NCBI GenBank assembly: GCA_022823365.1
Contig: JAJDXG010000062.1
Location: forward strand, 1-64,000
Source: Gemmatimonadota bacterium
Lineage (GTDB): Bacteria > Gemmatimonadota > Gemmatimonadetes > Longimicrobiales > Gaopeijiaceae
DNA: 64,000 nucleotides
Direction: 5' to 3'
Shown in pieces: positions 1,742-31,066 of the stretch. The notes under the pieces are model-generated. The model saw nothing but the letters and a program-made list of their open reading frames with translations, did no database searches and was not told where the DNA came from. The position numbers and the translations under genes were made by a program. The first letter of the stretch is position 1; every line of letters starts with the position of its first letter.

Positions 1742-2695
1742 TCAGGCTCGCTCCCTGCGTATCCTTGCCATCAGCTCGATCGGATCGCCGGGTTGCTCCG
1801 TCGAGCCGAACTCCCGATACAGCGTCGCGACGTTGACGACGATCCGCTCGGCTTCGCCCCACGAGTCGAAGTCGGCGAGCGAGATGTCCATCGCCGCGTC
1901 GTAGACGCTCAGGCCCGCGTCGAAACGGGCCCTGGCCTCGTCGCGCACGTACACCAGGTAGTCGCGCACGGCCTGGACGCCGCGCTTGTCGGTGATGGGG
2001 CCGTGGCCCGGGACGACGACCTCGACGGGCAGCTCGAGGATATGGTCGCAGGCCGCAATCCAGTTCGCGGCCGGTCCCGTCCACATGATCGGGTGGCCCC
2101 CGACGAACACGATGTCCCCGGTGAAGATCAGCTTGTCGTCGGGCACATGGACCAGGATGTCGCCGGCGGTGTGGCAGGGCCCCACCTGTTTCAGGACGAC
2201 GCGCTTGTCGCCCACATGCGTCTGGTACTCTCCCTCGAACGTCGTCGTCGGGAGGGTCTGGCTGATTCCCTCGAAGTCGAAGGCGCTGAAGGCTTCGAGG
2301 AGGAACCGGCCCGTCTCCCCCATGGCGGGGGCCTGACGCATGATCGCGACGAGTCGATCCGGACTCTCGGCGGCCATCTGCAGGGCCGCAGCCTTGGAGG
2401 CGATGATCTCCGCCTCCGCCACCAGCTCGTTGCCGTTGCAGTGGTCGGGGTCGGTGTGGGTGTTGACGAGCTTGTCGAACCTGCGTGCGGCCACGGGTTC
2501 CGCACGGCGCATGCCGTCCAGCATCGCGCGCGTCAGCCTGAGGTCGAACAGCGTGTCCACCAGGAGGCTCTCGTCGCCATCGACGACGAGCCCCGCATTG
2601 ATCCAACCCCAGCCTCCGTCGGGCTGGATCCACGCGTAGCAGCGTGCCCCGACATCGTGGAGCCCGTTCTTGAAAGGTCGAATCCCGAGTGTCAT
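1742..2695 (-). CDS. Metallo-beta-lactamase-fold hydrolase
   Basis: 317 residues from ATG 2695, preceded by a GGGAGG-type ribosome site; a longer frame to 2749 is open but less likely. Metal-ligand motifs appear in MBL order: HTDPDH (in the HxHxDH position), CHTAGD, FTGDIVF and VPGHGP. The second His of HxHxDH is Asp here, a variation seen in MBL subgroups with other metal preferences. The family hydrolyses thioesters, lactones, phosphodiesters and similar bonds; the substrate cannot be read from sequence. No signal peptide is seen, so it is probably cytoplasmic. It is divergent from the next gene and not obviously part of the defence genes. Confidence 0.85.
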   Translation of the reverse strand: MTLGIRPFKNGLHDVGARCYAWIQPDGGWGWINAGLVVDGDESLLVDTLFDLRLTRAMLDGMRRAEPVAARRFDKLVNTHTDPDHCNGNELVAEAEIIASKAAALQMAAESPDRLVAIMRQAPAMGETGRFLLEAFSAFDFEGISQTLPTTTFEGEYQTHVGDKRVVLKQVGPCHTAGDILVHVPDDKLIFTGDIVFVGGHPIMWTGPAANWIAACDHILELPVEVVVPGHGPITDKRGVQAVRDYLVYVRDEARARFDAGLSVYDAAMDISLADFDSWGEAERIVVNVATLYREFGSTEQPGDPIELMARIRRERA

Positions 2696-2874
2696 GCCTC
2701 CCTCCCCTCCCGTGGTCGGTCCCAAGTCTGCCTCGACTCGGTTCCGCAAGCAACCACGGGAGCGGGGGAAGGCATCACGCCTTGCCGCTACTCGGCCACC
2801 GCAGACCGGAGCATGTTAGTTTCACGATACCTGCCGTAGTGATAGAACCCTGGCCGGAGGCCATGGAGACTCGC

Positions 2875-4326
2875 ATGTCAGAGGATACGCTCGAGCGCTC
2901 TCCGGTGGAGGATGCAAATCGCTTTATCGACCTAGTGAATGGCGGCGGGTTTTGGCGGTCCGTGGATCTGCGCGTCTGTGCGATCCGTAGCGGTCGCCGC
3001 TGGATGAACCTTGTTACTCGCGGTTTCCTCGACCATCGTCCCCCTCGATCGGTCCCACGCTTTTCACCGGTCGAGCGGCGTCAATTCCGTGCCTGGCAGA
3101 TCGTTCGTCCCGTTGCGGAGATCGCTTCCATCGTCCGCGGCATCGTCAGTGGCATGATGAAGCTGCGGCCCCGGTATGTCAGATACGTCGGCCGGTCGGA
3201 TCAGCCTGCGGCCGACACCAGGTACAGCTTCAATGAGTTGGCCGGCACGTACCGGACTGCCGCGTACGACCTGTGGAGCTGTCACTCGCTCGTGCAATAT
3301 GGTTCCACAATCTTCGATGTCGTGATGCAGGCCGGTCACGATCCATTCGAGCTTGACGGAATGATCCGAGGCGGGCCGAACGCCTATGATGGCCTGCCCG
3401 ACCTGGTGCGGAGGTTCTGCGCACGGCCCCGAGGCCTGAAGATGAAGGGCACCACTACCGTCGTCGAGTTGATCGCGCCCCTCGCCGTGCGCTTTGATCC
3501 GGAGAGGATATCCCCGTCAGCGGACCGCGTGACCGTCACCGCGCGGGCGGCCGCGGATGTCTTTGTAGCGAATGCGGACGTCATCTGGACAGTAGGTAGC
3601 ACCATCGGAGAGCCCGTTCGCCATGGATCGGTCAGGCTCGCCGCATGCGAGTGGACGCACGAGGGGGATGCTCTCGTTTCGGAGCTGGACTTCCCGGTCG
3701 AGAACGTTGACTCCACCGCCACAGCATTTGTCGTCATCGGAGACCGGTGCGTAGACCGCGTGTCCGTGCCGTTGGCATCTACCGCTTCCAGTATCCGGAT
3801 CAAGACTCACGACGCTCTGGACCCTGGCCTTGAACGCTTCCGCAAGCAGCTTCGGGCGCGCGGGAAGAACAAGTCGCAGCAGTTCGAAGCCGCTGTGGGT
3901 CTGCTGTTCTTCTTCCTCGGATTCCACATGCACCCGCTTTCCGGGCATGCCAGACGGGGAGACACCATCGATCACCTTGCTCAGGCGCCAGGATCTTCCC
4001 TGATGCTCGCGATCGAGTGTACGGTTGGGGCGCTAGACACAGGCGGCAAGGTAGGCAAGCTCATCGCTCGGTCGGAGCACATGCGCAACCAACTTCCGGG
4101 CAGCGAAGTGATCGCGGTCCTGGCGACGGCTAGCAGCCGTGAGGCACTATCCGAGGCCGAGGTTGAAAAGGCCGAGCGTGACGACGTCTTGCTTCTGGCT
4201 CAAGAGAACCTCCAGGAACTCTGGATCGCGGCGCAGGCTGGAGAGACCAGTGTCCAGGTGGTCGACTGGTTTAGGCAGCAACTCTCTCAAGCCCGCCTTC
4301 GGCAAACCCAGGGCTCCGTCGCGTGA
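2875..4326 (+). CDS. Unknown protein with possible PD-(D/E)XK nuclease-like C-terminal half
   Basis: 483 residues from ATG 2875, chosen because GGAG lies six bases upstream; ATG 2863 in the same frame is an alternative. The N-terminal half (about 1-300) has no motif I recognise. After it comes a basic stretch (RKQLRARGKNKSQQFEAAVGLL) opening a region with a hydrophobic helix, then DTIDHLA, then LMLAIECTVG with GGKVGKL behind it, and a later hydrophobic strand (EVIAVLATAS). That order (helix, Asp, then strand with E-x-x and a nearby Lys) resembles restriction-endonuclease-like folds, with Lys shifted to the following turn. Fold assignment is inference. Its place beside VapBC and Druantia makes a defence role plausible. 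Confidence 0.6.
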   Translation: MSEDTLERSPVEDANRFIDLVNGGGFWRSVDLRVCAIRSGRRWMNLVTRGFLDHRPPRSVPRFSPVERRQFRAWQIVRPVAEIASIVRGIVSGMMKLRPRYVRYVGRSDQPAADTRYSFNELAGTYRTAAYDLWSCHSLVQYGSTIFDVVMQAGHDPFELDGMIRGGPNAYDGLPDLVRRFCARPRGLKMKGTTTVVELIAPLAVRFDPERISPSADRVTVTARAAADVFVANADVIWTVGSTIGEPVRHGSVRLAACEWTHEGDALVSELDFPVENVDSTATAFVVIGDRCVDRVSVPLASTASSIRIKTHDALDPGLERFRKQLRARGKNKSQQFEAAVGLLFFFLGFHMHPLSGHARRGDTIDHLAQAPGSSLMLAIECTVGALDTGGKVGKLIARSEHMRNQLPGSEVIAVLATASSREALSEAEVEKAERDDVLLLAQENLQELWIAAQAGETSVQVVDWFRQQLSQARLRQTQGSVA

Positions 4327-4388
4327 TTCATCGCGAGCCGCTCTCACCGTGGCGCCGCCGGAGTGGCGAACGGGAATGACGTTGCCAT

Positions 4389-4413
4389 ATTACCATATCG
4401 GCGATATGGTAAT
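4389..4413. promoter_or_regulatory. Perfect inverted-repeat operator of vapBC
   Basis: ATTACCATATC-GGC-GATATGGTAAT is a perfect 11-bp inverted repeat with a 3-bp spacer, ending five bases before the vapB ATG. Autoregulation by the VapB ribbon-helix-helix dimer, alone or with VapC, is usual for this family, and this is the obvious site. A degenerate copy (17,791-17,812) precedes the vapBC remnant. Confidence 0.8.
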
Positions 4414-4417
4414 CCAT

Positions 4418-4657
4418 ATGAAGACGACCCTGAACATCGACGACACCCTCATGCGGCGCCTACGGCAGGAGGCGGCCCGGCGCGGCACCACGATGACGGC
4501 GCTGGTGGAAGCGGGGCTGCGGATCGTCCTCGCCGACCCCGACGCCGCCGGGGGAGAGACCGTCGACCTGCCCCCCCTGCCCTCCTGGAGCAGCGGCGGG
4601 CAGCGGGTGGACATCAGCGATCGCGAAGAGCTCTACCGCGCGATGGAGGATGAGTGA
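4418..4657 (+). CDS. vapB: VapB-type antitoxin
   Basis: 79 residues from ATG 4418; an upstream in-frame ATG at 4406 lies inside the operator. Residues 1-40 (MKTTLNIDDTLMRRLRQEAA, then RRGTTMTALVEAGL) match the ribbon-helix-helix/antitoxin DNA-binding start common in VapB. The C-terminal part (LPSWSSGGQRVDISDREELY) is the segment that wraps the PIN toxin in this subgroup. It ends at TGA immediately before the GTG of vapC, so the two are translationally coupled. The palindrome over its start implies autorepression. Confidence 0.85.
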   Translation: MKTTLNIDDTLMRRLRQEAARRGTTMTALVEAGLRIVLADPDAAGGETVDLPPLPSWSSGGQRVDISDREELYRAMEDE

Positions 4658-5095
4658 GTGCTGGTCTTCGACACCAACGTGCTCCTCTACGCGGCGGACG
4701 AGGACTCCGAGTACCGTGACCCCTGCCGCCGCTGGATCGAGAGAGCCCGGCGCGATCCGTCGCCCGCCTTCCTGACCTGGAACATCTGCTACGAGTTCCT
4801 TCGGGTGAGCACCCACCGCCGGGTGTTCCGCTGGCCCTGGACGCCGGGGGAGGCCCGGCGCTTCATCGCCGCACTGGTGGACTCACCGGGGTTCGCGATG
4901 CTGGTCGCGACGCGCCGTCACGCGGCGATCCTCGAACAGACCGTGGCCGAGCTCCCGGACATCCGCGGGAACCAGATGTACGATCTGCACACGGCGGTGC
5001 TCATGCGCGAGCACGGGGTGAGCCGGATCTGCACGCGGGACACCGGGTTCCACCGGTTTCCGTTTCTGAGGGTGGTGGATCCGGTGAGGGGGTGA
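4658..5095 (+). CDS. vapC: VapC-type PIN-domain toxin ribonuclease
   Basis: 145 residues, GTG start directly after the vapB stop. The PIN fold is shown by the N-terminal VFDTNVLLYA (first acidic ligand), an acidic/hydrophobic middle, and the C-terminal LHTAVLMREHGVSRICTRDTGFHRF with the conserved Asp in TRD. VapC toxins are Mg-dependent RNases that usually cut tRNA or rRNA loops; the target here is unknown. All expected acidic positions appear intact, so the pair is probably functional. Confidence 0.85.
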   Translation: MLVFDTNVLLYAADEDSEYRDPCRRWIERARRDPSPAFLTWNICYEFLRVSTHRRVFRWPWTPGEARRFIAALVDSPGFAMLVATRRHAAILEQTVAELPDIRGNQMYDLHTAVLMREHGVSRICTRDTGFHRFPFLRVVDPVRG

Positions 5096-5382: not shown

Positions 5383-8300
5383 ATGTCCCTTGTGAGAACC
5401 TCCGAAACCTTCATCAGAAACTTCCTCACCACCAGAGGTCTTTCCAAGCCGAATGGCCGGCCTCTGTACCGCTACCGGATCAAACCGGAGGAATTCGAGG
5501 AGCTGGGAGCGATTCTCCCCCATGAACTCCGGAGGCCGCAGTTTGGCGCGCGTCGGATTGGACCTAAGGGGGCAATGGCGTTTTGTCTCTGGGCATCGGA
5601 ATGGTGGCATCGCAATTACGAGGCGGGAGCGTGGAAATGGATGCCTCTTCTCACAGCGCTAGAGACGCCGGCGCTGGCCCCGGGTGGGAGCCGGTACGCG
5701 GAGCTTCAGGATCTCGTCGCCCGAGGTCTCCGCGCATGGGGCCGCACCATCTACCGAGTGGGCCCAGCCAGGGGATACCTGGTGACTCTTGCATGTGAGG
5801 GCGGGCTCCCTCTGAAACTCATCCTCCGCGCGGAAACCCATCTCCGTCACTATCTGAAAGGAGTGCTTGAAGAGTTCAAGTTCTTTAGGGCGACTGACAC
5901 TCCTGCCCGCGACTTGGCCGAACGCCTCCGCCACCGTCTTCCGAGAGCGTGGCAGCGAGAGGCCGTGTACGAGCTCTCGGGCGAGTTGATCGAAGCCGTT
6001 TGGTTGCTCCAGCACGAACTGGGGCCGACCGAGACACCTGTCCAGGATCTTGACCGCAGACGACCGGGTTGGCGTGAGGAGTTTCCTGTCCGGATCAGCG
6101 ACCAAGTAGCGCGGACACTGCTCAACGACCTCCTTGTCGAAGCTGTCAAGGTGGCAAGGCGCGCGCGCATCGATGTCCGGTGGAACGTGGAACTCGCGCC
6201 GGTTGCCGCCGGGAATTGGGAACTTAGGGGCTCGTTTCACATTCCTGCAACGATGAGCGAGGAGGCGTTCAAACGCCTTTTTGACAGCTGGGCACATGCC
6301 CCCCGGCGCTTCGATCTCGGGGTTCAGACTGCCATGGGTCGATTCCGTGCTCTGGCATTGGGTACCGAAAGACGAACTGACGACAACCGACGCAGCTTCC
6401 GGCTGGAGCCGTTCCCTGCCGCCAGTAGGGCAAACACCACTGGCTTGAGGGGTTCACGGCGGCTTATCGCACGTACCCACAACGAGAGGTGCCCCACTGA
6501 TCTGTTTCAGGGATCCTCGGGTCTTGGCGACGCAGCATGGGTCTTTGTCCCCCAGGGGTCCGACGAGGCGGCGCGCCCCATGTGTCGACTGATCGGTCAG
6601 GGAACAGTCCGAGTGAAGGAGCCCTGTGCTTTCGTAGCGGTGGACGCGAGAGTATCTCCCGACACCAGAGAGGGAGAGGCAAAGCGGGTCGGGTCGATTC
6701 GCAATGAACGCGGGCGCGTAGTGTACCGGGTGACAGGCAGGGTAGCTTTCCTAGCCGAGGATGGTTTTCGAACGGTTGTCGAGACAGAGGCCACCTCCGG
6801 TGTCGCCAACGTCGAGTACCATTTGCTAGGACGTGAGAAACGCTTTGTCGCCGGCACCACGTCAGCGTTCCTGGGTGGCCCCTCGTTGTACATGCGACGT
6901 GACGGGGAGCTCGTCAGGCGTATTCCAGAGCAAGATCTCCAATGGAAGCCCAACGTCCCTGGAGGACGGTGGACAGAGTATTCTTCCGTCGCGGTGGATT
7001 CTGGCACGATCTGCGGATCAGGTTGGCTTCGATATGTCAAGAATGATGAAATACGCCAAACCGTATCGACTTGCATATTGCCTAAGGATGCCGACATCGA
7101 ACTCCTACCCTCGTCTGATCCCACCCACGGGGAGCTTCGGTTAACCGGATTCGGCGACATCGTGGCCATCGCACAGCCTACTCCGAGCCTGACGTTCGAA
7201 AGCCGGGTAGGACCCGGCTGGTATCGCTTGGCACTATGCGCCCTTGGCGACGTCCCGCGCGAAGTCGGCGTTGTAGTGGATTGGCGCGGGCAGGGACGAG
7301 CGGAGTTCACGTTGCCCTTTCCGGCGAGACGGGCCGCCTTCGTTGGCGCGGACGGCATACCCATGCCGCCGGACGCTCGTTTGGCTCAAGGATCTCTGGC
7401 GGGTGTCCGGGCAGAAGTCATCGTACCAGAGACCGCGCGCTTCAAGATCCAAGGACAGTATTCCGGCCGAGATGCGGCGGCCGTCAGGCGACGCTCCGGG
7501 TTGTTCGCTCGCGAGATACCGGCGGTGGGCTTCGGCCACCATGTGCTAGACTTGGCCGAGCTCGACCACGATATCACGGAGCGGCTCGCACTAACTGATC
7601 GTCCAGATGCGGCCGTCCGTTTGACGATCGTGAGCCCTGAATCTCGAGATGCACCCAAACCCGCCAGCGTTTCCGTCAGTCGGTTCGACCTCGGGTTTGA
7701 ACTCCGCGGTGACGGATCGACGTCGGTCGGGCTGGATCGACGCTGGCGGCGGACCCCGCAGGAGAACTTGCGTTCGCTTCAGGTGGAGATCCTGCCACTG
7801 ATCGAGCCAGACTTGGATCCAATCCCCCTCGAGCGATGTGACGGCGACGCCTGGCGTATCCGGCAGGACCGATTGGAGCCCGGTCCCCACTTGATTTTGG
7901 GGCGCCAGGGCGACTGGTACCGAGTACAACCGATGCCTTGGTACTTCGCGCCCCGCGGAAAAGCCGAGGAGCCGCACTCGTCGACTAATACCACAGTGGC
8001 CCAAGCTTACCTCGAGGCCTCGCAGCGCACCTATCGCTCCGGCGACGAACCATTCAGGCCCGTCGTAGGCCAGCTGGCCAGCGATCCGGGCCATCCAGAC
8101 TGGCCATTGGTGTTCGGTTACCTGAGGCAAACGTCCCTCCCAGTTGCGACCTTCCCTTTGCTACGCGGTCTTGTTCGAAATCCCGTTGCTTGCGCAATGG
8201 CTGCGGCGCGCGCGAGTGCAGCGGATTTCGAGCTACTTTGGGAACGGATGGAGTTGTTCCCTTTCGCATGGTGGCAGATTCCACTGTGCAGTTGGGAGGA

Positions 8301-8904
8301 AGCCTTCGTCTCCTACGGAGAGCATTGGGATGAAGAGTTGGAAGCGATGGAAGACACGGAACTCGCCTGGAAACTACTCCGAGAGGAGACGGATCGCAGC
8401 ATCGATCGCGTGTCAGGTCGGCTGGGAGGTCTCCGTGCCGCATTTCGTTTCCTGAGCGACCGTGTTGCGAACCGCACGATCTCGGCCCAGGGATCAAAGA
8501 TTGTGACGCCGAACCACCTTGAGGAGTTGCAGAGGGAGTATGATATCCACCGAGGGTCCTGTCCAGCGCTGCGCATGGCGTCTCACGCCCTTCCAGAGCT
8601 TCGCGGTCTTCGGTCAGAGATCGGCAGGGTCACCGCCGAACATCCTTGGTGTCGCTCAATCTTCGTCAAACCAACTGGGCGTTTCGCGGCTCCGCGACAT
8701 GCCGACTTCGTCGACGGCCCTTCCCTGACGGCAGCTATGGTCGTTGCAGGTGACAAAGGGCCCGTCCGACTCGCGGATGATATCCGGGCACTTCACGCGA
8801 ACCATCGAAGCTGGTTCGAGACGGCCTTGCGGTTGGCACAATTCATCGTCTTTGGTCGCCGGGAGGCCTACAAGATTGAAATTCAGCTGAGGGACATTTC
8901 CTAG
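5383..8904 (+). CDS. druH: Druantia type III DruH-like protein (YjiT/STY4851-like)
   Basis: 1173 residues, ATG 5383, TAG 8902-8904. The N-terminus contains RGLSKPNGRPLYRYR followed by EEFEEL, which I recall as the opening signature of the YjiT/STY4851 group. In enterobacteria that group is encoded next to the large helicase YjiV and corresponds to DruH of Druantia type III. The rest is a long, mostly beta-looking region (about 270-800) and a helical C-terminal third (about 920-1173); no nuclease motif is apparent. The next gene starts one base after its stop, so the two form an operon. DruH has no established biochemical activity; it acts with DruE against phage. Identification rests on the signature, size and partner. 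Confidence 0.75.
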   Translation: MSLVRTSETFIRNFLTTRGLSKPNGRPLYRYRIKPEEFEELGAILPHELRRPQFGARRIGPKGAMAFCLWASEWWHRNYEAGAWKWMPLLTALETPALAPGGSRYAELQDLVARGLRAWGRTIYRVGPARGYLVTLACEGGLPLKLILRAETHLRHYLKGVLEEFKFFRATDTPARDLAERLRHRLPRAWQREAVYELSGELIEAVWLLQHELGPTETPVQDLDRRRPGWREEFPVRISDQVARTLLNDLLVEAVKVARRARIDVRWNVELAPVAAGNWELRGSFHIPATMSEEAFKRLFDSWAHAPRRFDLGVQTAMGRFRALALGTERRTDDNRRSFRLEPFPAASRANTTGLRGSRRLIARTHNERCPTDLFQGSSGLGDAAWVFVPQGSDEAARPMCRLIGQGTVRVKEPCAFVAVDARVSPDTREGEAKRVGSIRNERGRVVYRVTGRVAFLAEDGFRTVVETEATSGVANVEYHLLGREKRFVAGTTSAFLGGPSLYMRRDGELVRRIPEQDLQWKPNVPGGRWTEYSSVAVDSGTICGSGWLRYVKNDEIRQTVSTCILPKDADIELLPSSDPTHGELRLTGFGDIVAIAQPTPSLTFESRVGPGWYRLALCALGDVPREVGVVVDWRGQGRAEFTLPFPARRAAFVGADGIPMPPDARLAQGSLAGVRAEVIVPETARFKIQGQYSGRDAAAVRRRSGLFAREIPAVGFGHHVLDLAELDHDITERLALTDRPDAAVRLTIVSPESRDAPKPASVSVSRFDLGFELRGDGSTSVGLDRRWRRTPQENLRSLQVEILPLIEPDLDPIPLERCDGDAWRIRQDRLEPGPHLILGRQGDWYRVQPMPWYFAPRGKAEEPHSSTNTTVAQAYLEASQRTYRSGDEPFRPVVGQLASDPGHPDWPLVFGYLRQTSLPVATFPLLRGLVRNPVACAMAAARASAADFELLWERMELFPFAWWQIPLCSWEEAFVSYGEHWDEELEAMEDTELAWKLLREETDRSIDRVSGRLGGLRAAFRFLSDRVANRTISAQGSKIVTPNHLEELQREYDIHRGSCPALRMASHALPELRGLRSEIGRVTAEHPWCRSIFVKPTGRFAAPRHADFVDGPSLTAAMVVAGDKGPVRLADDIRALHANHRSWFETALRLAQFIVFGRREAYKIEIQLRDIS

Positions 8905-8905
8905 A

Positions 8906-11900
8906 ATGCCAGATTCCACATCGCCTCCTTTCTTCGAGTCGCTCACGCAAGATCTCATCGAGAGGTCGGCGAGTTCACTTCTCGGCATTTATGGGCCACG
9001 CACAGATTCGCTGCGTGAATACCTCTTTCAGGTGCTACGGAGACCTGCGGGGCATCGGGACGGCTTTCTGGCAGATCCGGTTTTTGAGGCGATTTTCGAC
9101 TGGCGGCGGGTGGAGCACTCCATGCTTGACTTGGCGCAGCAAGGGTTCCTCACCGAAGAGCTGGTCGAAGCCATGGATGAGAAAGCCAGCGATGAACGGC
9201 TTTCGGAATACCAGTTTCCGATGGAATGGCATCCCTATACACACCAGTACGCTGCTTGGAAGCAGCTTACACGTGAGAAGCCGCGGTCAGTGCTGATCAC
9301 CAGCGGCACCGGATCGGGAAAGACCGAGGGATTCTTAGTACCGATCTTGGACGACCTGGCGCGACAATGCGCTGGGGCCGGTCGACTGCGCGGAGTCAGG
9401 GCGCTGTTCCTTTACCCACTGAACGCGTTGATCAACAGTCAACGCGATCGCCTAAGCGCCTGGTCGCGCCCCTTCAACGGCGACATTCGTTTCTGTCTGT
9501 ACAAGGGCGATACTCCGCGCAATATGTCAGCACCCAAGAGGAAGCGGCTTGGACCGGAACTCGTCGGCGACCGAGCGACGCTGCGGGAAGACACGCCACC
9601 GATCCTCGTGACCAACGCAACGATGCTGGAGTACATGCTCATCCGAGCCGAGGACAAGCCGATCATCGACCAATCGCAGGGTAAACTGCGCTGGGTAGTC
9701 CTGGATGAAGCGCACACGTACCAAGGGTCGCGGTCGGCCGAAATCGCGCTTCTGCTTAGGCGGGTTCTCTACGCCTTCGGCGTTGAGTCGTCCGAAGTAC
9801 GCTTCGTCGCCACTTCCGCAACGATCGGCGACGAGAGCCCTGAGAGCGAAGCCAGACTGCAGCGATTCCTGGCGGACTTGGGCGGAGTCGAAACGGAGCG
9901 TGTTCACGTTGTTCGAGGTGAGCGAAGTCACCCCCGGCCGCCAACGAGATTCTCTGAACCATGCAACCAGCCGCTCCCCACCGCTGCCGAGCTCAGGGCC
10001 ATGACCCGCGAGGAGCGCGGTACTGCACTGGCATCCTCACGGGCGGCTCGGAGGGTTCGGCAGGCACTCCTGCGGTCCGACGGAGCCCGCACACTGACTC
10101 AGCTTACCCAGGCACGCTTGGGTGTGGACAAGGGTGCCGATCCGCTTGTCGAGGGCCAGAGAACACTTGAAATCATTGACTTAGCGACCGACGCAACCGT
10201 GAAGAAGGAGCCGTTTCTGCGTGTCCGCGGGCACCTCTTTCATCGAACGCAAGGGGGCGTGTGGGCGTGCATCTCGAACCGTTGTCCGGGCCGCAAGGGT
10301 ACGCCGCTGGACAGTTTTGAGTGGGGCTTTGGCAAGCTTTTCTTCGAGCGCCGGGAGCGTTGCGACGAGATCGGATGCGACTCCATGGTGTTGCCCATGG
10401 TGTTGTGCACTGAGTGCGGCAAGGAGTACCTAACCGGCAAGCTGACTGGCGACCATGGGCAGGCGATCGTGCCTCGTGCTGTCGGAGTCCAGGATCAGAG
10501 CGAGGATTTCGCCGAGCTCATTGATCTCGGAGCCGACGAAGACGACGATGCCGAAAGAGAGGATGAGGCCAAGAATACTCTGAATCGCTATCTGGCTCAT
10601 CCTGCGACGCCCCAGGTGAACGCGATCCATCTGGATCGAAGGACAGGCCGTTGGGTGGGGCCTGAGAGCGATGACGCGGTGCACTTTGGCGAGGTGGGCC
10701 AGACGCAATCGGGGTTGCCGAGATGCCCCGAATGCCGAAGCAGCCGCAGACCCGACTGGTTGCTCAGGCCATTTCGGGGTGGGGCGTCCCTGATCCTTCG
10801 TAATACGATTCCAGTTGTCCTTGAGTACACGCCCCGCTTCGCGAGGAGTAATGAGCGATTGCCGTCCAGCGGCCGACGCCTTCTCACCTTTACGGACAGC
10901 CGCCAGGGCACAGCCCGATTCGCGCTGGACGCGCAACTCGACTCCGAGCGCAACTATACACGAAGCATGGTCTACCACTTGGTTGCCGCGGCTCGGGTGG
11001 ATCGCCCTGCCGACACTGAGAAGATCGAGACGCTGGAACAGGACATCGAGTCACTGCAGCAGGCTCCCCAAACTGGCCCATTCCAACGGATGCTGGCTGA
11101 AAAAAAAAGCGAATTGGAAGCGCTGACGACCCCGAAAGTGGGTCGCCTAGAGTGGGAAGAGGCGGTCGACAAGCTGTCGCAAAGAACCGAGATGTCGGTG
11201 TGGCTGCGACAACACTGGCGCCACCTCCCGCTGTCCGACTTGCCTTCACCCGACCTTGCTGAGATTGCCCTTCTCCGGGAATTCGCTCGACGCCCGAAGC
11301 GACAGAATTCCTTGGAGACGTTGGGCTTCGTTGCGGTGGACTACTCGGGATTGGCGGAACATCCCGAGCCTCCCGATCCCTGGAAGAGTCGCGGCCTGAA
11401 CGCTGCTGACTGGAGGAACTTTCTCAAAACGGCTCTGGACCATCTGGTCCGAGGGCGGCGCGCGATCCAGGTGCGCGAGGACTTCATTCCCTGGCTCGGT
11501 GTCCCCCACAAGTCCACCGGTTTGATCGGTCCAGATGCCGAGCGTTTCAAGTGGTCGGTGCCCTGGCCGCGCTCAACACCCTACACTCGGCGATCCCGAC
11601 TGGTGCAACTTCTCGCGCTTGCGTTGGAGGTAGAACCATCAACCGATCGCCAAGGAGAATCCGAAGTCAACTCCTGCCTCCTCAAGGCGTGGCACCAGTT
11701 GCGACCAATACTGGACACCACCGGCGAGGGGCGCCGACTGAACCTGCGGAAGCGGGTTGTGCTCCGGGAAGTACGTAATGCCTGGCTCTGTCCCATAACG
11801 CGTCGCGTCCTGGACACTACCGTATTGGGTCTCACTCCGTATGTGGCACCGGGCCTCAGTCGTGAGATGCTGACGGCCAAGTCCATTCGGATGCCGCGTT

Positions 11901-14900
11901 TGGAGGCTCCCTTCTGGCGGACACCCACGGATGCGCCCTACAGCCGGGAGAAAATCGACGAAGTCATCCGATCCGACCCGGATATCGCTGAGTTGGAGCG
12001 GAACGGGGTATGGCAAGGGTGGAGTCGCCGCATATACGCACAGGTCGACTACTTCCAAGTAGCCGAACACTCGGCTCAGATCGGTGCCGGACGTCTCCGT
12101 GAACTCGAGGGTCGGTTCCGCAAGGGACGAGTCAACGTGTTGAGCTGCTCCACGACAATGGAGATGGGCGTAGACATCGGCGGGCTGTCCGCTGTCGCCA
12201 TGAACAACGCTCCTCCGAGCCCGGCGAACTACCTTCAGCGCGCCGGTCGGGCTGGGCGTCGACAGGAGTCTCGCGCGATCGGCCTAACCCTGTGCAACAC
12301 CTCGCCGCACGGAGAGTGGGTCTTTCGGAATCCGTTATGGCCGTTCCGCACCAAGTTGCATGTGACACAGGTGAGCCTCCAGAGTGAGCGCATCGTTCAG
12401 CGGCATGTCAACGCCCTTGCGCTCACCCGGTTCTTTGCTGTCCGGCAAAGTGGACAGGAACTCCACCGCCTCTCCGCGGGGTGGTTTTTCGAAGGGACCG
12501 AGGACGAATCCTCCGTATGCGAATATTTTCGCCGGTGGCTGAACGACGACGCTGTCGGTGACGAGTGGATCACGACGGGTGTCAACCGTCTGTTGCGCGG
12601 CTCCGCCTTCGAAGGGATCGAGACTGGACGCCTCATGGCAATGGTTGACGATGGAATCGAAGCAGCGGCGACCGGGTGGGCTGCAGAGCATGCCCCGTTG
12701 GCTCAGGAGCGAGACAGTCTCGCTGGCCAGCCAACGAACGATCCGGTTCGCCGAGCTATCGAAATTCAGCTAAAGCGTTTGAGTGAAGAATATCTGTTGC
12801 GGGAGTTTGCCTCAAGGAATTTCCTGCCAGGTTACGGATTTCCGACCCAGGTCGTCCCGCTCGTAACCACGACAATCGACGATCTGCGCCGCCCGCGGTC
12901 TAAGACCGGCCCTGACGCGACTCGAGTGGACAATCTCGCGCAGGCGCGCAACTACCCGACACGTGACCTCTCTGCAGCACTCAGGGAATACGCCCCCGGA
13001 TCGGATGTGGTCATTGACGGCAGAGTCCTGACCTCGTCCGGCCTGACCCTGAACTGGAAGGCGCCGGCGAGCGATGCTGGTGTGCGTGAAATCCAGGCGC
13101 TTCGTCACGCGTGGCACTGTCGGTATTGCGGTGTGGTCGGCACGTCCCTTCGTAGGCCAGAATTCTGTGAGTCCGACTACTGTGCTGGGAATGAGTCGCC
13201 CCTGAGGGTCCGGAGCTACATGGAGCCAGCAGGATTCGCAGTCGATATCCGTGCCTCGCTGAACAACGATCTAAGCCGGTTCTCGTATCTCCCTGTGCGG
13301 TATCCGTGGATATCAGCGGGGGGAGAGCAGTGGCAAAGTCTCGCGACGCGTGCGACAGGCCGCTTCCGCTACAGTGCCGGCGGCCAGGTATTCCACTACA
13401 CTGACGGAGAGCACGGCCATGGGTTCGCCGTTTGTTTGCAGTGTGGGCGAGCAGTGGCGGAACCCGAAGAGGAGGGTGAATTGCCGCCCCTGATGCAAAA
13501 CCATAAGTCCCTACGGGGCGGCTCGGCTACGGGATCGGACGGGTTTTGCCGTGGCAATGACGGAGCGTATACGATCCGGCGCAACGAATGGCTTGGAGTG
13601 TCAAAGGAAACCGATGTGTTCGAGTTGCAACTGCGCTCAGTGGAGAATAGGCAGCCGCTGAATCCGGTGACAGCTTCTTCGATTGCAGTCGCCCTGCGAC
13701 AAGCCTTGGCCGACAAGATCGGCGTGGAGAGTCGAGAGATCGGCTGGTCGATTGGAGCAATTCGGATGGAGGGGAGCGGCGGGGGCACGTCCATTCTTCT
13801 GTATGACCAAGCCACGGGAGGGGCGGGCTTTGTCGCACAGGCCGGTGAGCACTTACCAGAATTGCTTCGACGGGCGCGCGGGGTGCTTGAATGCCCCAGG
13901 AAGTGCGATAAAGCCTGCCACGCTTGCCTTCTCTCTTATGACACCCACCGTTACGCGGACAGGCTGGATCGCCGCGATGCGCGTGCGGTTCTCAGTGAAC
14001 AATTCCTCGCTGCCCTTGACCTCCCACCGAAGGATCAGCTATTCGGACGGGACACGAAGATGGAGTGCGATCAGATCGAGCTGGCTCTGCAGAGGGAGCT
14101 GAAGGAGACCGACACGCTCAGGTTGCATTTGGGAGGGGATCCTGCTCGTTGGTCGTTGGAGGACTGGGTCCTCGGGCGAGACATTGTGCGATGGAGGAAC
14201 GAGGGACGAGTTGTCGAGTTGGTTCTGCCCCGAGACCTGGACACAATTCCCCGGGAAGAGCGCGTTCATCTAGCGATGTGGGGAAGTACATTGGGAGTTG
14301 ATCTCCTGCGTGCCGGTCGTTCAAGGCGGCATCGTCCGCTCCTTGCAGAGCTCTCCAACAGCGATCGGACCGTGGCGTTCGCTGCACTGTCAAAGGAGGC
14401 GCTGATTCCAGGGGACAAATGGGGCGTTTCTGGAGAGAGCGCGCATGTCGTCCGAGGTCCATTGGAAACAGCGCCCACCGCGCTCCTCACAGTCGAGCCG
14501 GCCGACCTGCGCGGTCCCCCTTCCGGCAGGGTTGATCCTGTCGTCCTTAGGCATGAGATACGCGGACCGGTAAGCGCTTTTGGTTCGGTATTCTGGAAGG
14601 AAATGCAGGCCGCTGCACCGGGTCTCGCGGAGCGGATCACCAGAGGCCAGCCAATTCGGGAAGTGGTGTACCACGATAGGTATGTCCGGTCGCCTCTGGC
14701 CGCTCGCTTGGTCTCGGAAGTCTTTGGCGAACTCGTCGCGACGACAGGTGGCAAGACGTCAGACACGCGACTGCGGATCGTCACCACACCTCCCGACAGG
14801 CCGGCACGCCGCAGACGGTGGGTGCAGGACGACTGGGCAACGGGCCAAGATGCGAAGAGGTCGATCGAACGCCTCTTTGCCCACAAATCGATGTCAATCG

Positions 14901-15139
14901 GTATTACTCTTCGTGACATTAGGCGAGCGCAGCACCAGCGGGAATGGCGGGTTGTTTGGGAGGATGGCAGGATGTGGCGCTGTCATTTGGATCATGGACT
15001 GGGGTTCGTGCAGGCAGCCGAGCAGGTGGTACACCCGTTTACGGCGTCGACCGAACGGCAGGGAGCGGTGCTGGCCAATGTTGAATTCAACATAATTGCC
15101 GCGAGATCCGGGCTCGGGTATGTGTATGGGGTGGATTAG
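8906..15139 (+). CDS. druE: Druantia DruE-like superfamily 2 helicase with DUF1998
   Basis: 2077 residues, ATG 8906, one base after the druH stop. Helicase motifs are intact: PYTHQYAAW (Q-like motif), Walker A SGTGSGKTE (about 133-141), DEAH (267-270), VATSATIG (motif III), and YLQRAGRAGRR (motif VI, about 1108-1118). Several Cys clusters look like zinc ribbons: CISNRCPG (about 455), CDEIGC and CTECGKEY (490-505), CPECRS (about 607), CRYCG (about 1405). A DUF1998/MrfA-like module follows (LYDQATGGAGF about 1631; CPRKCDKACHACLL about 1662). The last 400 residues are unrecognised. Size, domain order and partner fit DruE, the shared component of Druantia systems. The IS begins 28 bases after its stop. 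Confidence 0.82.
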   Translation: MPDSTSPPFFESLTQDLIERSASSLLGIYGPRTDSLREYLFQVLRRPAGHRDGFLADPVFEAIFDWRRVEHSMLDLAQQGFLTEELVEAMDEKASDERLSEYQFPMEWHPYTHQYAAWKQLTREKPRSVLITSGTGSGKTEGFLVPILDDLARQCAGAGRLRGVRALFLYPLNALINSQRDRLSAWSRPFNGDIRFCLYKGDTPRNMSAPKRKRLGPELVGDRATLREDTPPILVTNATMLEYMLIRAEDKPIIDQSQGKLRWVVLDEAHTYQGSRSAEIALLLRRVLYAFGVESSEVRFVATSATIGDESPESEARLQRFLADLGGVETERVHVVRGERSHPRPPTRFSEPCNQPLPTAAELRAMTREERGTALASSRAARRVRQALLRSDGARTLTQLTQARLGVDKGADPLVEGQRTLEIIDLATDATVKKEPFLRVRGHLFHRTQGGVWACISNRCPGRKGTPLDSFEWGFGKLFFERRERCDEIGCDSMVLPMVLCTECGKEYLTGKLTGDHGQAIVPRAVGVQDQSEDFAELIDLGADEDDDAEREDEAKNTLNRYLAHPATPQVNAIHLDRRTGRWVGPESDDAVHFGEVGQTQSGLPRCPECRSSRRPDWLLRPFRGGASLILRNTIPVVLEYTPRFARSNERLPSSGRRLLTFTDSRQGTARFALDAQLDSERNYTRSMVYHLVAAARVDRPADTEKIETLEQDIESLQQAPQTGPFQRMLAEKKSELEALTTPKVGRLEWEEAVDKLSQRTEMSVWLRQHWRHLPLSDLPSPDLAEIALLREFARRPKRQNSLETLGFVAVDYSGLAEHPEPPDPWKSRGLNAADWRNFLKTALDHLVRGRRAIQVREDFIPWLGVPHKSTGLIGPDAERFKWSVPWPRSTPYTRRSRLVQLLALALEVEPSTDRQGESEVNSCLLKAWHQLRPILDTTGEGRRLNLRKRVVLREVRNAWLCPITRRVLDTTVLGLTPYVAPGLSREMLTAKSIRMPRLEAPFWRTPTDAPYSREKIDEVIRSDPDIAELERNGVWQGWSRRIYAQVDYFQVAEHSAQIGAGRLRELEGRFRKGRVNVLSCSTTMEMGVDIGGLSAVAMNNAPPSPANYLQRAGRAGRRQESRAIGLTLCNTSPHGEWVFRNPLWPFRTKLHVTQVSLQSERIVQRHVNALALTRFFAVRQSGQELHRLSAGWFFEGTEDESSVCEYFRRWLNDDAVGDEWITTGVNRLLRGSAFEGIETGRLMAMVDDGIEAAATGWAAEHAPLAQERDSLAGQPTNDPVRRAIEIQLKRLSEEYLLREFASRNFLPGYGFPTQVVPLVTTTIDDLRRPRSKTGPDATRVDNLAQARNYPTRDLSAALREYAPGSDVVIDGRVLTSSGLTLNWKAPASDAGVREIQALRHAWHCRYCGVVGTSLRRPEFCESDYCAGNESPLRVRSYMEPAGFAVDIRASLNNDLSRFSYLPVRYPWISAGGEQWQSLATRATGRFRYSAGGQVFHYTDGEHGHGFAVCLQCGRAVAEPEEEGELPPLMQNHKSLRGGSATGSDGFCRGNDGAYTIRRNEWLGVSKETDVFELQLRSVENRQPLNPVTASSIAVALRQALADKIGVESREIGWSIGAIRMEGSGGGTSILLYDQATGGAGFVAQAGEHLPELLRRARGVLECPRKCDKACHACLLSYDTHRYADRLDRRDARAVLSEQFLAALDLPPKDQLFGRDTKMECDQIELALQRELKETDTLRLHLGGDPARWSLEDWVLGRDIVRWRNEGRVVELVLPRDLDTIPREERVHLAMWGSTLGVDLLRAGRSRRHRPLLAELSNSDRTVAFAALSKEALIPGDKWGVSGESAHVVRGPLETAPTALLTVEPADLRGPPSGRVDPVVLRHEIRGPVSAFGSVFWKEMQAAAPGLAERITRGQPIREVVYHDRYVRSPLAARLVSEVFGELVATTGGKTSDTRLRIVTTPPDRPARRRRWVQDDWATGQDAKRSIERLFAHKSMSIGITLRDIRRAQHQREWRVVWEDGRMWRCHLDHGLGFVQAAEQVVHPFTASTERQGAVLANVEFNIIAARSGLGYVYGVD

Positions 15140-15170
15140 AGCGTGGCTCAGCTCGCCAGCGGAGAACTGC

Positions 15171-15262
15171 TGATTCCGACGCATGTCGACCACCGATTCC
15201 GAGGCATGCCGTCCACTGATTCCGAGGCATGCCGTCCACCCATTCCGACGGATGTCGTCCAC
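15171..15262 (+). repeat. Four tandem 23-bp repeats at IS left end
   Basis: Units at 15,171-15,193, 15,194-15,216, 15,217-15,239 and 15,240-15,262, exactly adjacent. The shared pattern is GATTCCGA-S-GCATG then YCGWCCAC, with few substitutions between units. Multiple terminal repeats of this sort are the DNA-binding sites of IS21-type transposases. Confidence 0.9.
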
Positions 15263-15419
15263 TTCGGTGCGCCCTTGGCGGGGCGCGCCGCGGCACCAGT
15301 GCAGGAGTGGAGCGGGTAGGGAGGGGGTGCTGGATGACCTGATGTAGGGAGCCGCTTCTTCCAACCTCGCGAGAGATCCTTGAGCGAGGAGGAGGACGGT
15401 GGCCCAGAGGAGGTTATCC

Positions 15420-16964
15420 ATGCGCAAGATTCGAGATGTACTCCGGCTGAAGTACGGCCTCGGCCGGAGCCACCGGGAGATCGGGGCAATTCTCCGGATC
15501 TCCCACAGCACGGTCGGCAGCTACGTCCGGCGGGCCCGGGAGGCGGGAGTGTCCTGGCCGCTGCCGGACGGCCTGGACGACGCGCGGCTGGAAGCGGCGC
15601 TGTATCTGCCGATGGCGCCGTCGCGGGTTCGGCGGGCGGAGCCGGACTGGGCGCGCGTGCACCGGGAGCTGGCGCGGAGGGCGTGACGCTTCAGTTGCTG
15701 TGGCTGGAGTACCGCGAGGCGCCCCCGGATGGATACCAGTACACCCGGTTCTGCGACCGCTACCGGGAGTGGCGCGGGCGGCTCAACGTGGTGTTGCGCC
15801 AAGTGTATCGGGCGGGCGAGAAGACGTTTGTGGACTACGCGGGCTCGACGGTCGAAGTCACGGACCGGCAGACCGGAGAGATCCGCGAAGCGAAGGTGTT
15901 CGTCGGGGTGCTGGCGTCGTCGAACCACACCTTTGTCGACGTCACGCGGACCCGGTCGCTGCCGGACTGGACGGCGTCGCACGTGCGGATGTTCGAAGTT
16001 CTGGGGCGGGGTGCCGGAGCTCGTGATCCCGGACAACGAGAAGGCTGCGGTGCACCGCGCGAGCCGATACGAACCCGACATCAACCGGACCTACCATGAT
16101 CTGGCGGCCCCCTACGGGACCGCGGTGCTGCCCGCCCGCCCGCGATCGCCTCAGGACAAGGCGAAGGTGGAGGCGGCGGTCCAGAACGTGGGGCGGTGGG
16201 TTCTGGCGCCGTTGCGCAACCACCGGTTCTTCTCGCTCTGCGAGGTCCGCGAGGCGATCAAGCCTCTGCTGGCGGCGCTCAACGAGCGGCCGTTCCAGAA
16301 GGCCGAGGGCAGCCGGCGCAGCCTCCTCGAGGACCTGGACCGGCCCGCGCTCAAGCCGCTCCCGGCCGGGCGCTACCAGTACGCCGAGTGGCGCAAGGCG
16401 CGCGTCAACATCGACTACCACATCCGGGTCGATGGCCACCTCTACAGCGTTCCGCACGCGCTCAGGGGCGACGAGGTCGAATCCGGCTCAGCGTCACGAC
16501 AGTCGAGGTCTTCCACAAGCACAAGCGTGTGGCCGCGCCCATGTCCGCGGGCGCCGGAAGGGAGGCTACACGACGCTTCGGGGGCATCTGCCCGCCGCGC
16601 ACCGCGCCCACCTCGAGTGGACCCCGTCGCGCCTCATCCGCTGGGCGCGAAAGACAGGGCCGCAGACCGCTGCCATCACGAAGAAGCTCCTCGAGAGCCG
16701 TCCCCCCACCCGGAACAGGGCCACTGCAGCTGCCTTGGCCTCATGCGGCTCGTGGGCGCCTACCCCGCCGAACGGATGGAAGCCGCCTGCCGCCGCGCGC
16801 TGAAGATCGGCACGCTGAGCTACAAGTCCGTGAAGTCCATCCTCTCCACCGGCCTCGACCAGACCAACCCCGGCGAGCAACACTCGCTCGACCTGCCCGA
16901 CGACCACGCCCACGTCCGCGGACCGGACTACTACGCCAACCCCCACAACGGAAAGGAGACCTGA
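15420..16964 (+). pseudogene. istA: istA, IS21 transposase, frameshifted
   Basis: Starts at ATG 15,420 behind AGAGGAGG (a GTG at 15,399 is also open). The N-terminal helix-turn-helix (SHREIGAILRISHSTVGSYV) is intact. The frame is then lost: a one-base deletion near 15,680 stops the first frame before [20 protein letters not shown]; another shift near 16,010 precedes [11 protein letters not shown]; further shifts occur near 16,485, 16,540 and 16,720. The DDE residues can be seen across frames: FVDYAG, PDNEK and KAKVE. The C-terminal end ([11 protein letters not shown]) is readable to the stop at 16,964. At least five frame changes mean no full transposase is made. Confidence 0.88.
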
Positions 16965-16969
16965 CGAAG

Positions 16970-17560
16970 ATGCTTCAACAACCCACCCTCGACCTGCTCC
17001 ACGAACTACGCCTGGCCGGCATGGCCTAGGCCTTCGAGGAGCAACTCGCCATGCCCGACATCAGCGAACTCGCCTTCGACGACCGCCTGTCCCTGCTCCT
17101 CGAACGCGAGAAGACCGAACGGGAACAACGTCGCTACCTGCGCCTCAAGGGGCTCGCCAAGCTCCACCTCGACGCCACCATCGAGGACCTCAACTTCAAG
17201 GCCAACCGCGGTCTCGACCGATCCCTCATCCTCCGCCTCGCCTCGGGGCAGTGGATCAAGGACGGCCAAACCGTGCTGGTCACAGGCGCGACCGGGTCCG
17301 GAAAGTCCTACTTGGCGTGCGCCCTCGGCCACTAGGCCTGCCGCCTCGGCGTCTCGACTCGCTACTTCCGCGTCTCCCGCCTTCTCGACCAACTCGCACT
17401 GGCGCGCGCCGACGGTTCCTACCCGAAGCTCGTTCAGCGCCTGGCCAAGACCTAGCTCCTCGTCCTCGACGACTGGGGCCTCGCTGCCCTGTCAGCCCAG
17501 GGCCGCCACGATCTGCTCGAAGGCCTCGCCGATCGATGTCCAGCAACCCTTTCCGATCAC
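16970..17560 (+). pseudogene. istB: istB, IS21 ATPase helper, nonsense-mutated and 3'-truncated
   Basis: Begins at ATG 16,970, six bases after the istA stop. The frame reads LLHELRLAGMA-TAG-AFEEQLAMPD, continues through Walker A VTGATGSGKSYLA to ALGH-TAG-ACRLG, then LAKT-TAG-LLVLDDWGLA (Walker B). The three in-frame stops (about 17,027, 17,333 and 17,453) are all TAG. Two sit where a polar residue such as Gln would fit, consistent with CAG-to-TAG transitions. After about 17,540 homology ends just before the right terminal repeats, so roughly 60 C-terminal codons have been lost. IstB is the AAA+ target-selection partner of IstA. Confidence 0.86.
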
Positions 17561-17569
17561 CGCTCATAC

Positions 17570-17638
17570 CCGGACGGCTTGGCTCGGAACGGATGGACAG
17601 CTTCGCCCGGAACGGGTGGACGACTTCGTCGGATTACG
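17570..17638 (-). repeat. Three tandem 23-bp repeats at IS right end
   Basis: Units at 17,570-17,592, 17,593-17,615 and 17,616-17,638, inverted relative to the left-end units. Read on the minus strand they share TCCG near the start of the unit and mostly a GTCC toward its end. The outermost unit is the closest match to the left end. Confidence 0.8.
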
Positions 17639-17783
17639 CAAGACCTTCTCCTGTGCCATCGCAGGCCAGGTTGATCCTCATCTCACACCGTGCTCCGATC
17701 CCCATACGCGAACCGAAGTGAACGGAAACACGGTTGCCGGAGGGTGGTTGAGGGGCACAAGGGAGTTAAGGTGCGGAAGTGTT

Positions 17784-18027
17784 GCCATATTTCCATATCG
17801 TTGATATGGTAACCCATATGTGGCTGCGCCTCGTCTTCGCCGATCCCGACGCGGCCGGGAAAGAGACCGGCGATCTGCACCCCCTGCCCTCCTGGAGCAG
17901 CGGCGGACAGCGGGTGGACATCAGTAATCGCGAAGAGTTCTACGGCGCGATGTAGGACGAGTGAGTGCTAGTCTTCGATACCAACGTGCTCCTCTACGCG
18001 GCGGACGGAGGACTCCGAGTACCGTGA
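17784..18027 (+). pseudogene. Decayed second copy of the vapBC module
   Basis: From the operator through the start of vapC this matches 4384-4720. Relative to the intact copy, 93 bp (31 codons, corresponding to 4421-4513) are deleted in frame directly after the vapB ATG (17,818), removing the ribbon-helix-helix domain. The remaining 45 codons keep the toxin-binding end (LPSWSSGGQRVDIS) and stop at TAG 17,953, where the intact copy has GAG. The vapC part starts at GTG 17,965, reads VFDTNVLLYAAD, then has one extra G and stops at 18,025. Homology ends there. The protein products are probably dead, but the operator is kept. Confidence 0.85.
17791..17812. promoter_or_regulatory. Operator-like inverted repeat of the vapBC remnant
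   Basis: TTCCATATC-GTT-GATATGGTAA keeps the core CCATATC/GATATGG arms of the operator at 4389-4413, with changes only in the spacer and outermost bases. It could still bind the VapB made by the intact locus. Confidence 0.6.
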
Positions 18028-18303
18028 GCACAAGTAGGGTCGGACACTTCCTCGCGACCGAGGCTGGGGAGGAGATCAGGATTCTCGGCCAGATGAGGGC
18101 GTTCGCAGAATCCCGGAACTCGATCGTACATGGCGAAAGGGACCAGACGCCGTTCAATGGGTGGAGCCGTGCAAGGCAGGTGACCTTTCTAGTCGGTCGG
18201 ATGTCTCTGCGGAGACCATCGACCAAGCGATTGCCGTTCTACAACAGCTGATCGCCGCGAACCAAGACTGGCTTGGAAAGAGCACGCGCGGTCAACCCCT
18301 CGC
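18026..18303 (+). pseudogene. Fragment of a HEPN-like gene
   Basis: Directly after the vapC remnant, one frame reads VGHFLATEAGEEIRILGQMR, then AESRNSIVHGERDQ. RNSIVH fits the R-x4-H signature of HEPN ribonucleases and related domains. Near 18,165 the reading moves to another frame (SAETIDQAIAVLQQLIAANQ) and runs to about 18,300. No start codon with a ribosome site is seen. It is probably the 3' remains of an abortive-infection or toxin-type gene. The short motif makes this a tentative reading. Between the IS end (17,641) and 17,783 I see nothing. Confidence 0.4.
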
Positions 18304-19227
18304 TCAGCCCCAAACGCGCCTCCGCCATCGGACGATCGTGGGTTCTACGACCCTCTTCAGGTACTTCGACCTGGGTGACTTTCCCCACCAGCCGGACTGA
18401 CCGGGTGCGGAGGGATGATTGAAGGTCAGAACGTCCACCCGTCGTCCGGCAATGTCAGTGGTCTCGGGAACCACGGGGCCGTCGTATCGCGCACCAGGCT
18501 TCCTGCCGAGCCCCAGCGGGCTTCCGATCCACGATCGGACGCCTTGCCCTTCAGCAATGATGACGGTCGGCTCCAAGATCTCCAAGGTCTTGCGGAAGTG
18601 TTCGCCGCAGTTTCGCTGCATCTCCCGACTCGACGCGCCTTTGCCGGCATTGTCTCCCCTGGGTGGCTCCGCGAGCGCGGTGCAAAGCAGGTAGTTGACG
18701 AGCGCGAAGGCGTCGAAGATATGACCGCCCTGAGAGTGGTTGCGGAATACCGTTTCACCATGGCGATCCGCGCCCGCCTCTCTGCCCAGCAGCAGGCGGA
18801 GTATCGACGTCGTTCCCGCCATGTGCGCATTCCGCTTCCCGAATCGTGTTTCGGCCGAGCCGTTGATCATCGCCGCCCGCGCCTTCAGGTCGACCAGCGT
18901 AGAACGCTGCCCGTACTCTTGGCCCACCACGACGATTCTGAGTTCGCGGCCATCCACCGTGAGGTCATAATGCCTGCCGACATGGCTCATCTGACCTCCG
19001 TAGAAAAACTCGGGCCGACTGGCTTGGCACTGTTGGAAGTGCCTGCAGATGAATTCTCCATCCGCCAGCAACCTCCGGCGGACATACGCCTCGAGCTCAC
19101 GGATGCGCCCCGTCGTCCTGACCGGGTCAGACCGGATGGGAGTGTCGGGCACGTCATTCGCGGTCGATGATCGGCTCACCCGAGGTCGCTCACCGTCACC
19201 CGCTTCTCGGGACCACATTCGCCTCAT
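18304..19227 (-). CDS. Uracil-DNA-glycosylase-fold protein at end of the restriction operon
   Basis: 307 residues; the ATG at 19,227 overlaps the hsdR stop as ATGA, which decides the start. Motif VVVGQEYG (about 100-106) fits the first catalytic loop of the UDG superfamily (compare VIGEAPG or LGQDPY types), and FNHPSAPGQSGWWG near the C-terminus fits the HPS motif of the last loop. Two Cys occur before it (CRHFQQC), too few to infer an iron-sulfur cluster. UDG-fold enzymes remove uracil or other bases from DNA; some act in phage defence by excising modified bases. Translational coupling to hsdR argues for a role with the restriction system. The substrate is unknown. Confidence 0.65.
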   Translation of the reverse strand: MRRMWSREAGDGERPRVSRSSTANDVPDTPIRSDPVRTTGRIRELEAYVRRRLLADGEFICRHFQQCQASRPEFFYGGQMSHVGRHYDLTVDGRELRIVVVGQEYGQRSTLVDLKARAAMINGSAETRFGKRNAHMAGTTSILRLLLGREAGADRHGETVFRNHSQGGHIFDAFALVNYLLCTALAEPPRGDNAGKGASSREMQRNCGEHFRKTLEILEPTVIIAEGQGVRSWIGSPLGLGRKPGARYDGPVVPETTDIAGRRVDVLTFNHPSAPGQSGWWGKSPRSKYLKRVVEPTIVRWRRRVWG

Positions 19228-25851: not shown

Positions 25852-25885
25852 GTCCGTGCGGGTAGGGTTTCCTGCTCCATTGGAA

Positions 25886-30840: not shown

Positions 30841-31066
30841 GTCACCATGTGCCACCTTTGCCCGCCCGGATGCCAAGTCGGTCGAGAAGGTCTCGGGGGT
30901 TGGTCAGCGGCGCGTCGAGCGGTAAACCCGCGGCATCAGCGCATCACCCCATCCTGCCATTCGCTCGCCCGGCACCTTCCGCCATCGTTCCCAGGCAACG
31001 ACTCAAGCACCGATGGCCGGTCCCGACTCGCGCGACCCGCCGTCCCCTCCCCGTCAACGGCGGACG

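Follow-up and report, generated by a model that had tools for sequence, protein, structure and literature searches.

Near the start of contig JAJDXG010000062.1 of a Gemmatimonadota bacterium, two adjacent genes, druH and druE, are located in a defence island adjoining mobile-element remnants. The features below are given in coordinates of the window, i.e., the whole 64,000-nucleotide stretch analysed here.

42-707, + strand: tyrosine recombinase, C-terminal catalytic part, directly at the contig edge (the contig begins at window base 1)
2689-4326, + strand: 545-aa ORF preceding the VapC gene; PADLOC, Pfam and NCBIfam gave no match
4658-5095, + strand: gene for a VapC-family PIN toxin, just upstream of druH
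5383-8904, + strand: druH (YjiT / STY4851-ECs_5259 family), 1173 aa
8906-15139, + strand: druE, SF2 helicase of the YprA family with putative C-terminal PLD modules, 2077 aa
15729-16964, + strand: C-terminal fragment of an IS21 transposase, directly downstream of druE
19224-25908, - strand: type I restriction-modification (RM) genes hsdR, hsdS and hsdM
25886-29208, - strand: McrC and McrB
29538-30464: HNH endonuclease gene
31013-32080, + strand: Rpn-family (PF04754) recombination-promoting nuclease gene, scoring below the NCBIfam cut-offs

The druH stop codon (8902-8904) and the druE ATG (8906) are separated by a 1-base gap. An original prediction, made from the letters of the sequence, described two co-directional genes one base apart that encode proteins of 1173 and 2077 residues, and both coordinates and lengths agree with the present analysis. 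Its description of a distant yet intact example also holds, with a DruE identity of ~33-35% to proteobacterial members and no internal stop in either the druH or the druE frame. No promoter-like or terminator-like signals above chance were detected in a scan that used the sigma-70 consensus only.

The tyrosine recombinase may be the integrase of the element with which the island arrived. The VapC gene is preceded by a 96-aa ORF (together 4363-5095, + strand) that could be the antitoxin. The type I RM genes and McrC/McrB form one apparent run of overlapping genes (19224-29208, - strand). The G+C content of the island is mostly 0.59-0.65, versus 0.67-0.75 further along the window. Beside Druantia III, an enrichment of type I and type IV RM systems has been reported (PMC13192584), and the neighbouring type I RM and McrBC genes match this published pattern.

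Assignment of the pair to Druantia type III

The druE product matches the PADLOC profile DruE3 (PDLC00037) with 2135.7 bits, aligning residues 9-2068 to profile positions 5-2044 of 2055, and the druH product matches DruH3 (E = 7.6e-74) as well as the NCBIfam YjiT family NF038336 (489 bits; cut-off 150), scores that lie far above chance expectation. Among solved structures, the top relatives are E. coli DruE (9tu7, 1115.8 bits) and E. coli DruH (9tud, E = 1.3e-50, residues 11-984). The original prediction had named the pair as DruH and DruE of Druantia III and pointed to the PADLOC profiles as a check; both profiles indeed match, over the full or nearly the full length of the proteins. The locus thus combines a full-length DruE3 match, an adjacent upstream DruH and a DUF1998/MrfA-type zinc module with conserved cysteines, all features of Druantia III. 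We conclude with high confidence that the pair makes up a complete anti-phage system of Druantia type III, in the putatively PLD-bearing branch, with a proposed E. coli-type working.

Druantia types I, II and IV were considered and rejected, as the helicase is best matched by DruE3 (2136 bits) and not by DruE1 (503 bits), DruE2 (383 bits) or DruE4 (341 bits). DISARM was rejected as well: DrmA scores 53 bits, DUF1998 is fused within DruE, and DrmB and DrmC were not found among the scanned neighbours.

The YprA helicase core and DUF1998 are common to a wider set of enzymes, and DruE matches DpdJ (95 bits), YprA/MrfA (6znp, 83 bits) and DrmB (26.5 bits) in addition to DrmA. The helicase might on these grounds be a DISARM DrmA, MrfA, DpdJ or other YprA-family enzyme next to an unrelated first gene. 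This is extremely improbable in view of the far higher scores of the full-length DruE3 profile and of E. coli DruE, and of a partner that is DruH in three independent searches. As DrmA, DpdJ and MrfA score far weaker and the first gene is DruH/YjiT, a better match to MrfA or DrmA with an unrelated first gene, which the original prediction had listed as speaking against it, was not what we found.

Conserved and branch-specific residues

The domains and sites of both proteins are as follows.

5563-5805, + strand: DruH residues 61-141, corresponding by residue identities to the N-terminal functional surface of the E. coli protein (residues 63-137)
9239-9835, + strand: DruE RecA1 / DEAD domain with Walker A GTGSGKT and DEAH box (PF00270, E = 1.1e-20)
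10268-10735, + strand: DruE Cys clusters 455/460/486/491 and 501/504/607/610, putative zinc sites, with Cys in 13/13 aligned DruE
12053-12262, + strand: DruE RecA2 motifs GVDIGG and QRAGRAGR (PF00271, E = 1.7e-11)
13685-13930, + strand: DruE MrfA-type Zn-binding domain (DUF1998/MZB; PF09369, E = 3.7e-12, 47.2 bits, cut-off 24.2)
13973-14575, + strand: putative inactive PLD-like DruE module (PLDi), with approximate borders inferred from alignment to E. coli DruE 9tu7, in which PMC12458937 and PMC13192584 locate PLDi
14588-15136, + strand: putative active PLD module of DruE (PLDa) with Y1922, D1924, Y1926, P1930, H2010, R2012, G2021, D2029 and G2031, based on conserved columns and the assignment in PMC12458937 and PMC13192584

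The helicase motifs noted originally are all present (GTGSGKT at 134-140, DEAH at 267-270, SATIG, GVDIGG and QRAGRAGR), as are the Cys clusters (455-610, 1405-1426, 1510-1548 and 1663-1674), and the claimed DUF1998 module corresponds to PF09369, which scores above its cut-off over residues 1594-1675. For residue-level comparison, DruE was aligned with 12 further DruE, and the residues described in PMC13192584 were mapped by adding 4 to the number in the paper to obtain the PDB chain number (35/36 letters agree). All 19 cysteines of the four clusters are Cys in 13/13 diverse DruE. The ATP pocket is identical to that of E. coli DruE at 8/8 residues, and the pocket residues G118, S119, K121, R165, D251, E252 and R1135 (PMC13192584) are unchanged across the 13 sequences. 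The same is true for the ssDNA path, where the six main contacts (N156, R207, N221, Y227, R231 and R1372) are all identical to E. coli and the same in 13/13 DruE.

Beyond the zinc module, the C-terminal region aligns to residues 1702-2099 of E. coli DruE. Two PLD-superfamily domains have been assigned to the DruE C-terminus, the last of which is predicted to be active (PMC12458937, PMC13192584), and the PLD fold of this region rests on these two studies. Among the 12 diverse DruE whose C-terminus is complete, W1839, Y1922, D1924, Y1926, P1930, H2010, R2012, G2021 and G2031 are invariant and D2029 is nearly so. The DruE studied here retains the whole putative PLD signature (YxDxYxxxP, HxR, G, DxG), and these conserved columns plausibly constitute a single putative HxR ... 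DxG PLD-type centre. Pfam gave no match beyond residue 1675 and no PLD family in the 12 aligned C-termini; a profile of these C-termini searched against solved structures matched E. coli DruE only, and an AlphaFold2 model of residues 1690-2077 from a two-row alignment had a pLDDT of 32.5. The originally reported 400 unrecognised C-terminal residues are thus unrecognised by Pfam but not by the DruE3 profile. The idea of a new domain was rejected because both this profile and the solved E. coli DruE cover the C-terminus. On an Azotobacter plasmid (5995-11112), a DruE of ~1705 aa stops short of the PLD modules, like the 1667-aa protein of Mycolicibacterium smegmatis.

At the N-terminus of DruH, the sequence RGLSKPNGRPLYRYR, singled out in the original prediction, was recovered and aligns with RSLSGADGRALYAYR of the solved E. 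coli DruH. Mutations on the N-terminal surface of the E. coli DruH abolish defence (PMC13192584). Of 14 loss-of-function positions, 11 are identical (F67, E73, R77, K85, W86, W119, L133, T135, L136, G140 and G141 in the DruH studied here), and three differ (R78 to H76, H85 to A83 and Y114 to A118). The E. coli surface positions E75, W88, W115 and G137 are kept in 12/12 DruH. Across pairs of systems, the identity of DruH is consistently below that of DruE (73 vs 81%, 53 vs 67%, 43 vs 59% and 23 vs 34%), a faster divergence that would be expected of a sensor.

Other residues reported for E. coli are not retained. The CTD-assembly residues H1415, H1572, H1574, E1913, E1968 and R2075 are unconserved in the DruE studied here, as are the CTD nucleotide-pocket residues R1258, N1987, Q1990 and Y1995; mutation of R1258 abolishes defence in E. 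coli (PMC13192584). The six assembly residues and R1258 occur only in the E. coli-branch sequence among the 13 DruE, a negative limited to the sampled sequences, in which single positions in poorly conserved stretches may carry alignment errors. E1961 and E1965 are common to some other DruE, including the one described here. For DruH, the ATP-interface residues N672, Y733, D735, R1064 and K1067 are unconserved; among 12 DruH, the ATP/Mg-interface residues N672, Y733 and K1067 are unique to the E. coli protein, and R1064 is shared with it by one further DruH. Diverged members, this one included, share the residues of the helicase, the zinc sites and the PLD signature together with most of the DruH N-terminal patch, but mostly lack those of the assembly contacts, the CTD pocket and the DruH ATP interface. 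Since the latter are unconserved, the higher-order assembly and nucleotide control of E. coli cannot be assumed. The comparison with the E. coli structures separates family-wide features from those of the enterobacterial branch only, and names residues whose mutation would probe the generality of the published mechanism.

Distribution and integrity of the pair

The nearest named relative is found in a sister species, a BD2-11 clade Gemmatimonadota MAG (bin43), with 81% DruE identity; the host is itself a member of the BD2-11 clade. The DruH family occurs in 5/395 sampled Gemmatimonadota genomes, all within the family of the host; two of the five carriers belong to the genus of the host, most members of which are without DruH. 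In both the DruH and the DruE tree, the Gemmatimonadota sequences cluster in a single, well-supported group and the three closest species branch in the same order. The DruH-DruE order is the same in three relatives and in seven annotated plasmids, and a fourth relative (G214:C39) has an intact DruH followed by a split DruE. DNA similarity between the window and the sister locus is restricted to 5409-15142 (78%), and the flanks of the pair differ between species. Because this similarity starts and stops with the two genes, the pair is either transferred or retained as one module. Viral contigs searched with the chosen peptide patterns gave no DruE relatives. In the bin43 genome, two large LRR/Big-domain proteins adjoin the pair (14921-23320, - strand), with one weak Peptidase_M66 match.

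The DruE of G214:C39 spans two overlapping frames, which reflects either a sequencing error or a decaying gene. Together with the IS21 fragment adjoining druE and the scan result for promoters and terminators, this relative could suggest that the pair described here is itself present but silent or decaying. The scan took in the sigma-70 consensus only, however, both frames are open, all catalytic signatures are intact and the sister species retains a highly identical DruE, which makes decay or silence very unlikely. The pair is rather a diverged, intact and genuine system that the PADLOC profiles can already detect. It is an ordinary member of its family, the E. coli representative of which has been solved and tested. 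In the literature searched, no paper on Druantia in Gemmatimonadota was found, and such genomes may still have been listed; a mechanistically studied phage-defence system is hereby extended to a phylum for which we found no such report.

Proposed mode of action and comparison with known systems

Family membership, completeness and residue conservation follow from the comparisons above, and each biochemical step proposed below would follow by homology. The E. coli DruH probably senses late phage structural proteins, and the E. coli DruE is a helicase-nuclease effector acting on 3'-tailed DNA (PMC13192584). By analogy, the divergent middle (Ig-like) region of DruH may sense a late phage structural protein, upon which its conserved N-terminal surface would activate the pathway. 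Through its ATP-driven helicase channel, DruE would load onto 3' ssDNA in replicating phage genomes, and its C-terminal PLD module would cut the phage DNA with H2010, R2012 and D2029 as putative catalytic residues. The pair appears, from its sequence, to have every family-wide conserved catalytic feature, consistent with an E. coli type of action.

The literature is unsettled on how the two proteins cooperate, because the M. smegmatis system is reported to act by DruH-DruE contact (PMC13316683) while a stable DruH-DruE complex was not found in the E. coli study (PMC13192584). The trigger in M. smegmatis is a tail protein, and the reported effect is a block of phage DNA circularisation (PMC13316683). 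A DruH-DruE complex could likewise block circularisation here, with the nuclease not being the effector; the loss of defence in interaction mutants (PMC13316683) and the unconserved CTD-assembly residues would fit such a working. However, the M. smegmatis DruE has 1667 aa, against a full C-terminal PLD region with intact signature here, and an unused signature would hardly persist in every full-length member. We consider this working unlikely and favour the helicase-nuclease action proposed by analogy with E. coli.

In the host genome, RecC gave no match (the E. coli control was positive) and neither did ZorA2, in a search without positive control; neither the RecD dependence nor the Zorya synergy can therefore be carried over, and the connection with RecBCD and Zorya described for E. 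coli probably does not hold in the same form here. The nearest substitute for RecBCD would be an AddAB-like pair in the host genome (G000:C39). A broader reading can be offered tentatively, though we give it somewhat less than even chances: most Druantia III systems, this lineage included, may control DruE and DruH unlike E. coli. The cryo-EM contacts, CTD pocket and DruH ATP interface would then be an enterobacterial specialisation and HxR/DxG the family-wide nuclease centre, in systems working without RecBCD or Zorya.

Among the known systems, DISARM DrmAB, MrfA/YprA and DpdJ have a YprA-type helicase core and a DUF1998-type zinc module in common with DruE, but different partner genes and far weaker scores than Druantia III. 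The M. smegmatis Druantia III (MSMEG_1253-1254; PMC13316683), compared by its description, likewise encodes DruH ahead of a DUF1998-containing DruE helicase, and no C-terminal PLD region is noted for it. The closest counterpart, in bin43 (MPMR01000034.1), has the same arrangement with 81% DruE and 73% DruH identity but unrelated flanks, namely LRR proteins and a PDC-S37/Hhe-like helicase versus type I RM and McrBC here. The E. coli Druantia III (9tu7, 9tud; PMC13192584) differs in its identity (~33% for DruE, 23% for DruH), in its assembly, CTD nucleotide-pocket and DruH ATP-interface residues, and in the RecC and ZorA2 of its setting, for which the host studied here gave no match. It nevertheless has the same gene order and full-length homology, an identical ATP pocket and ssDNA path, and the zinc cysteines, DUF1998, C-terminal PLD signature and most of the DruH N-terminal surface in common with the pair described here.
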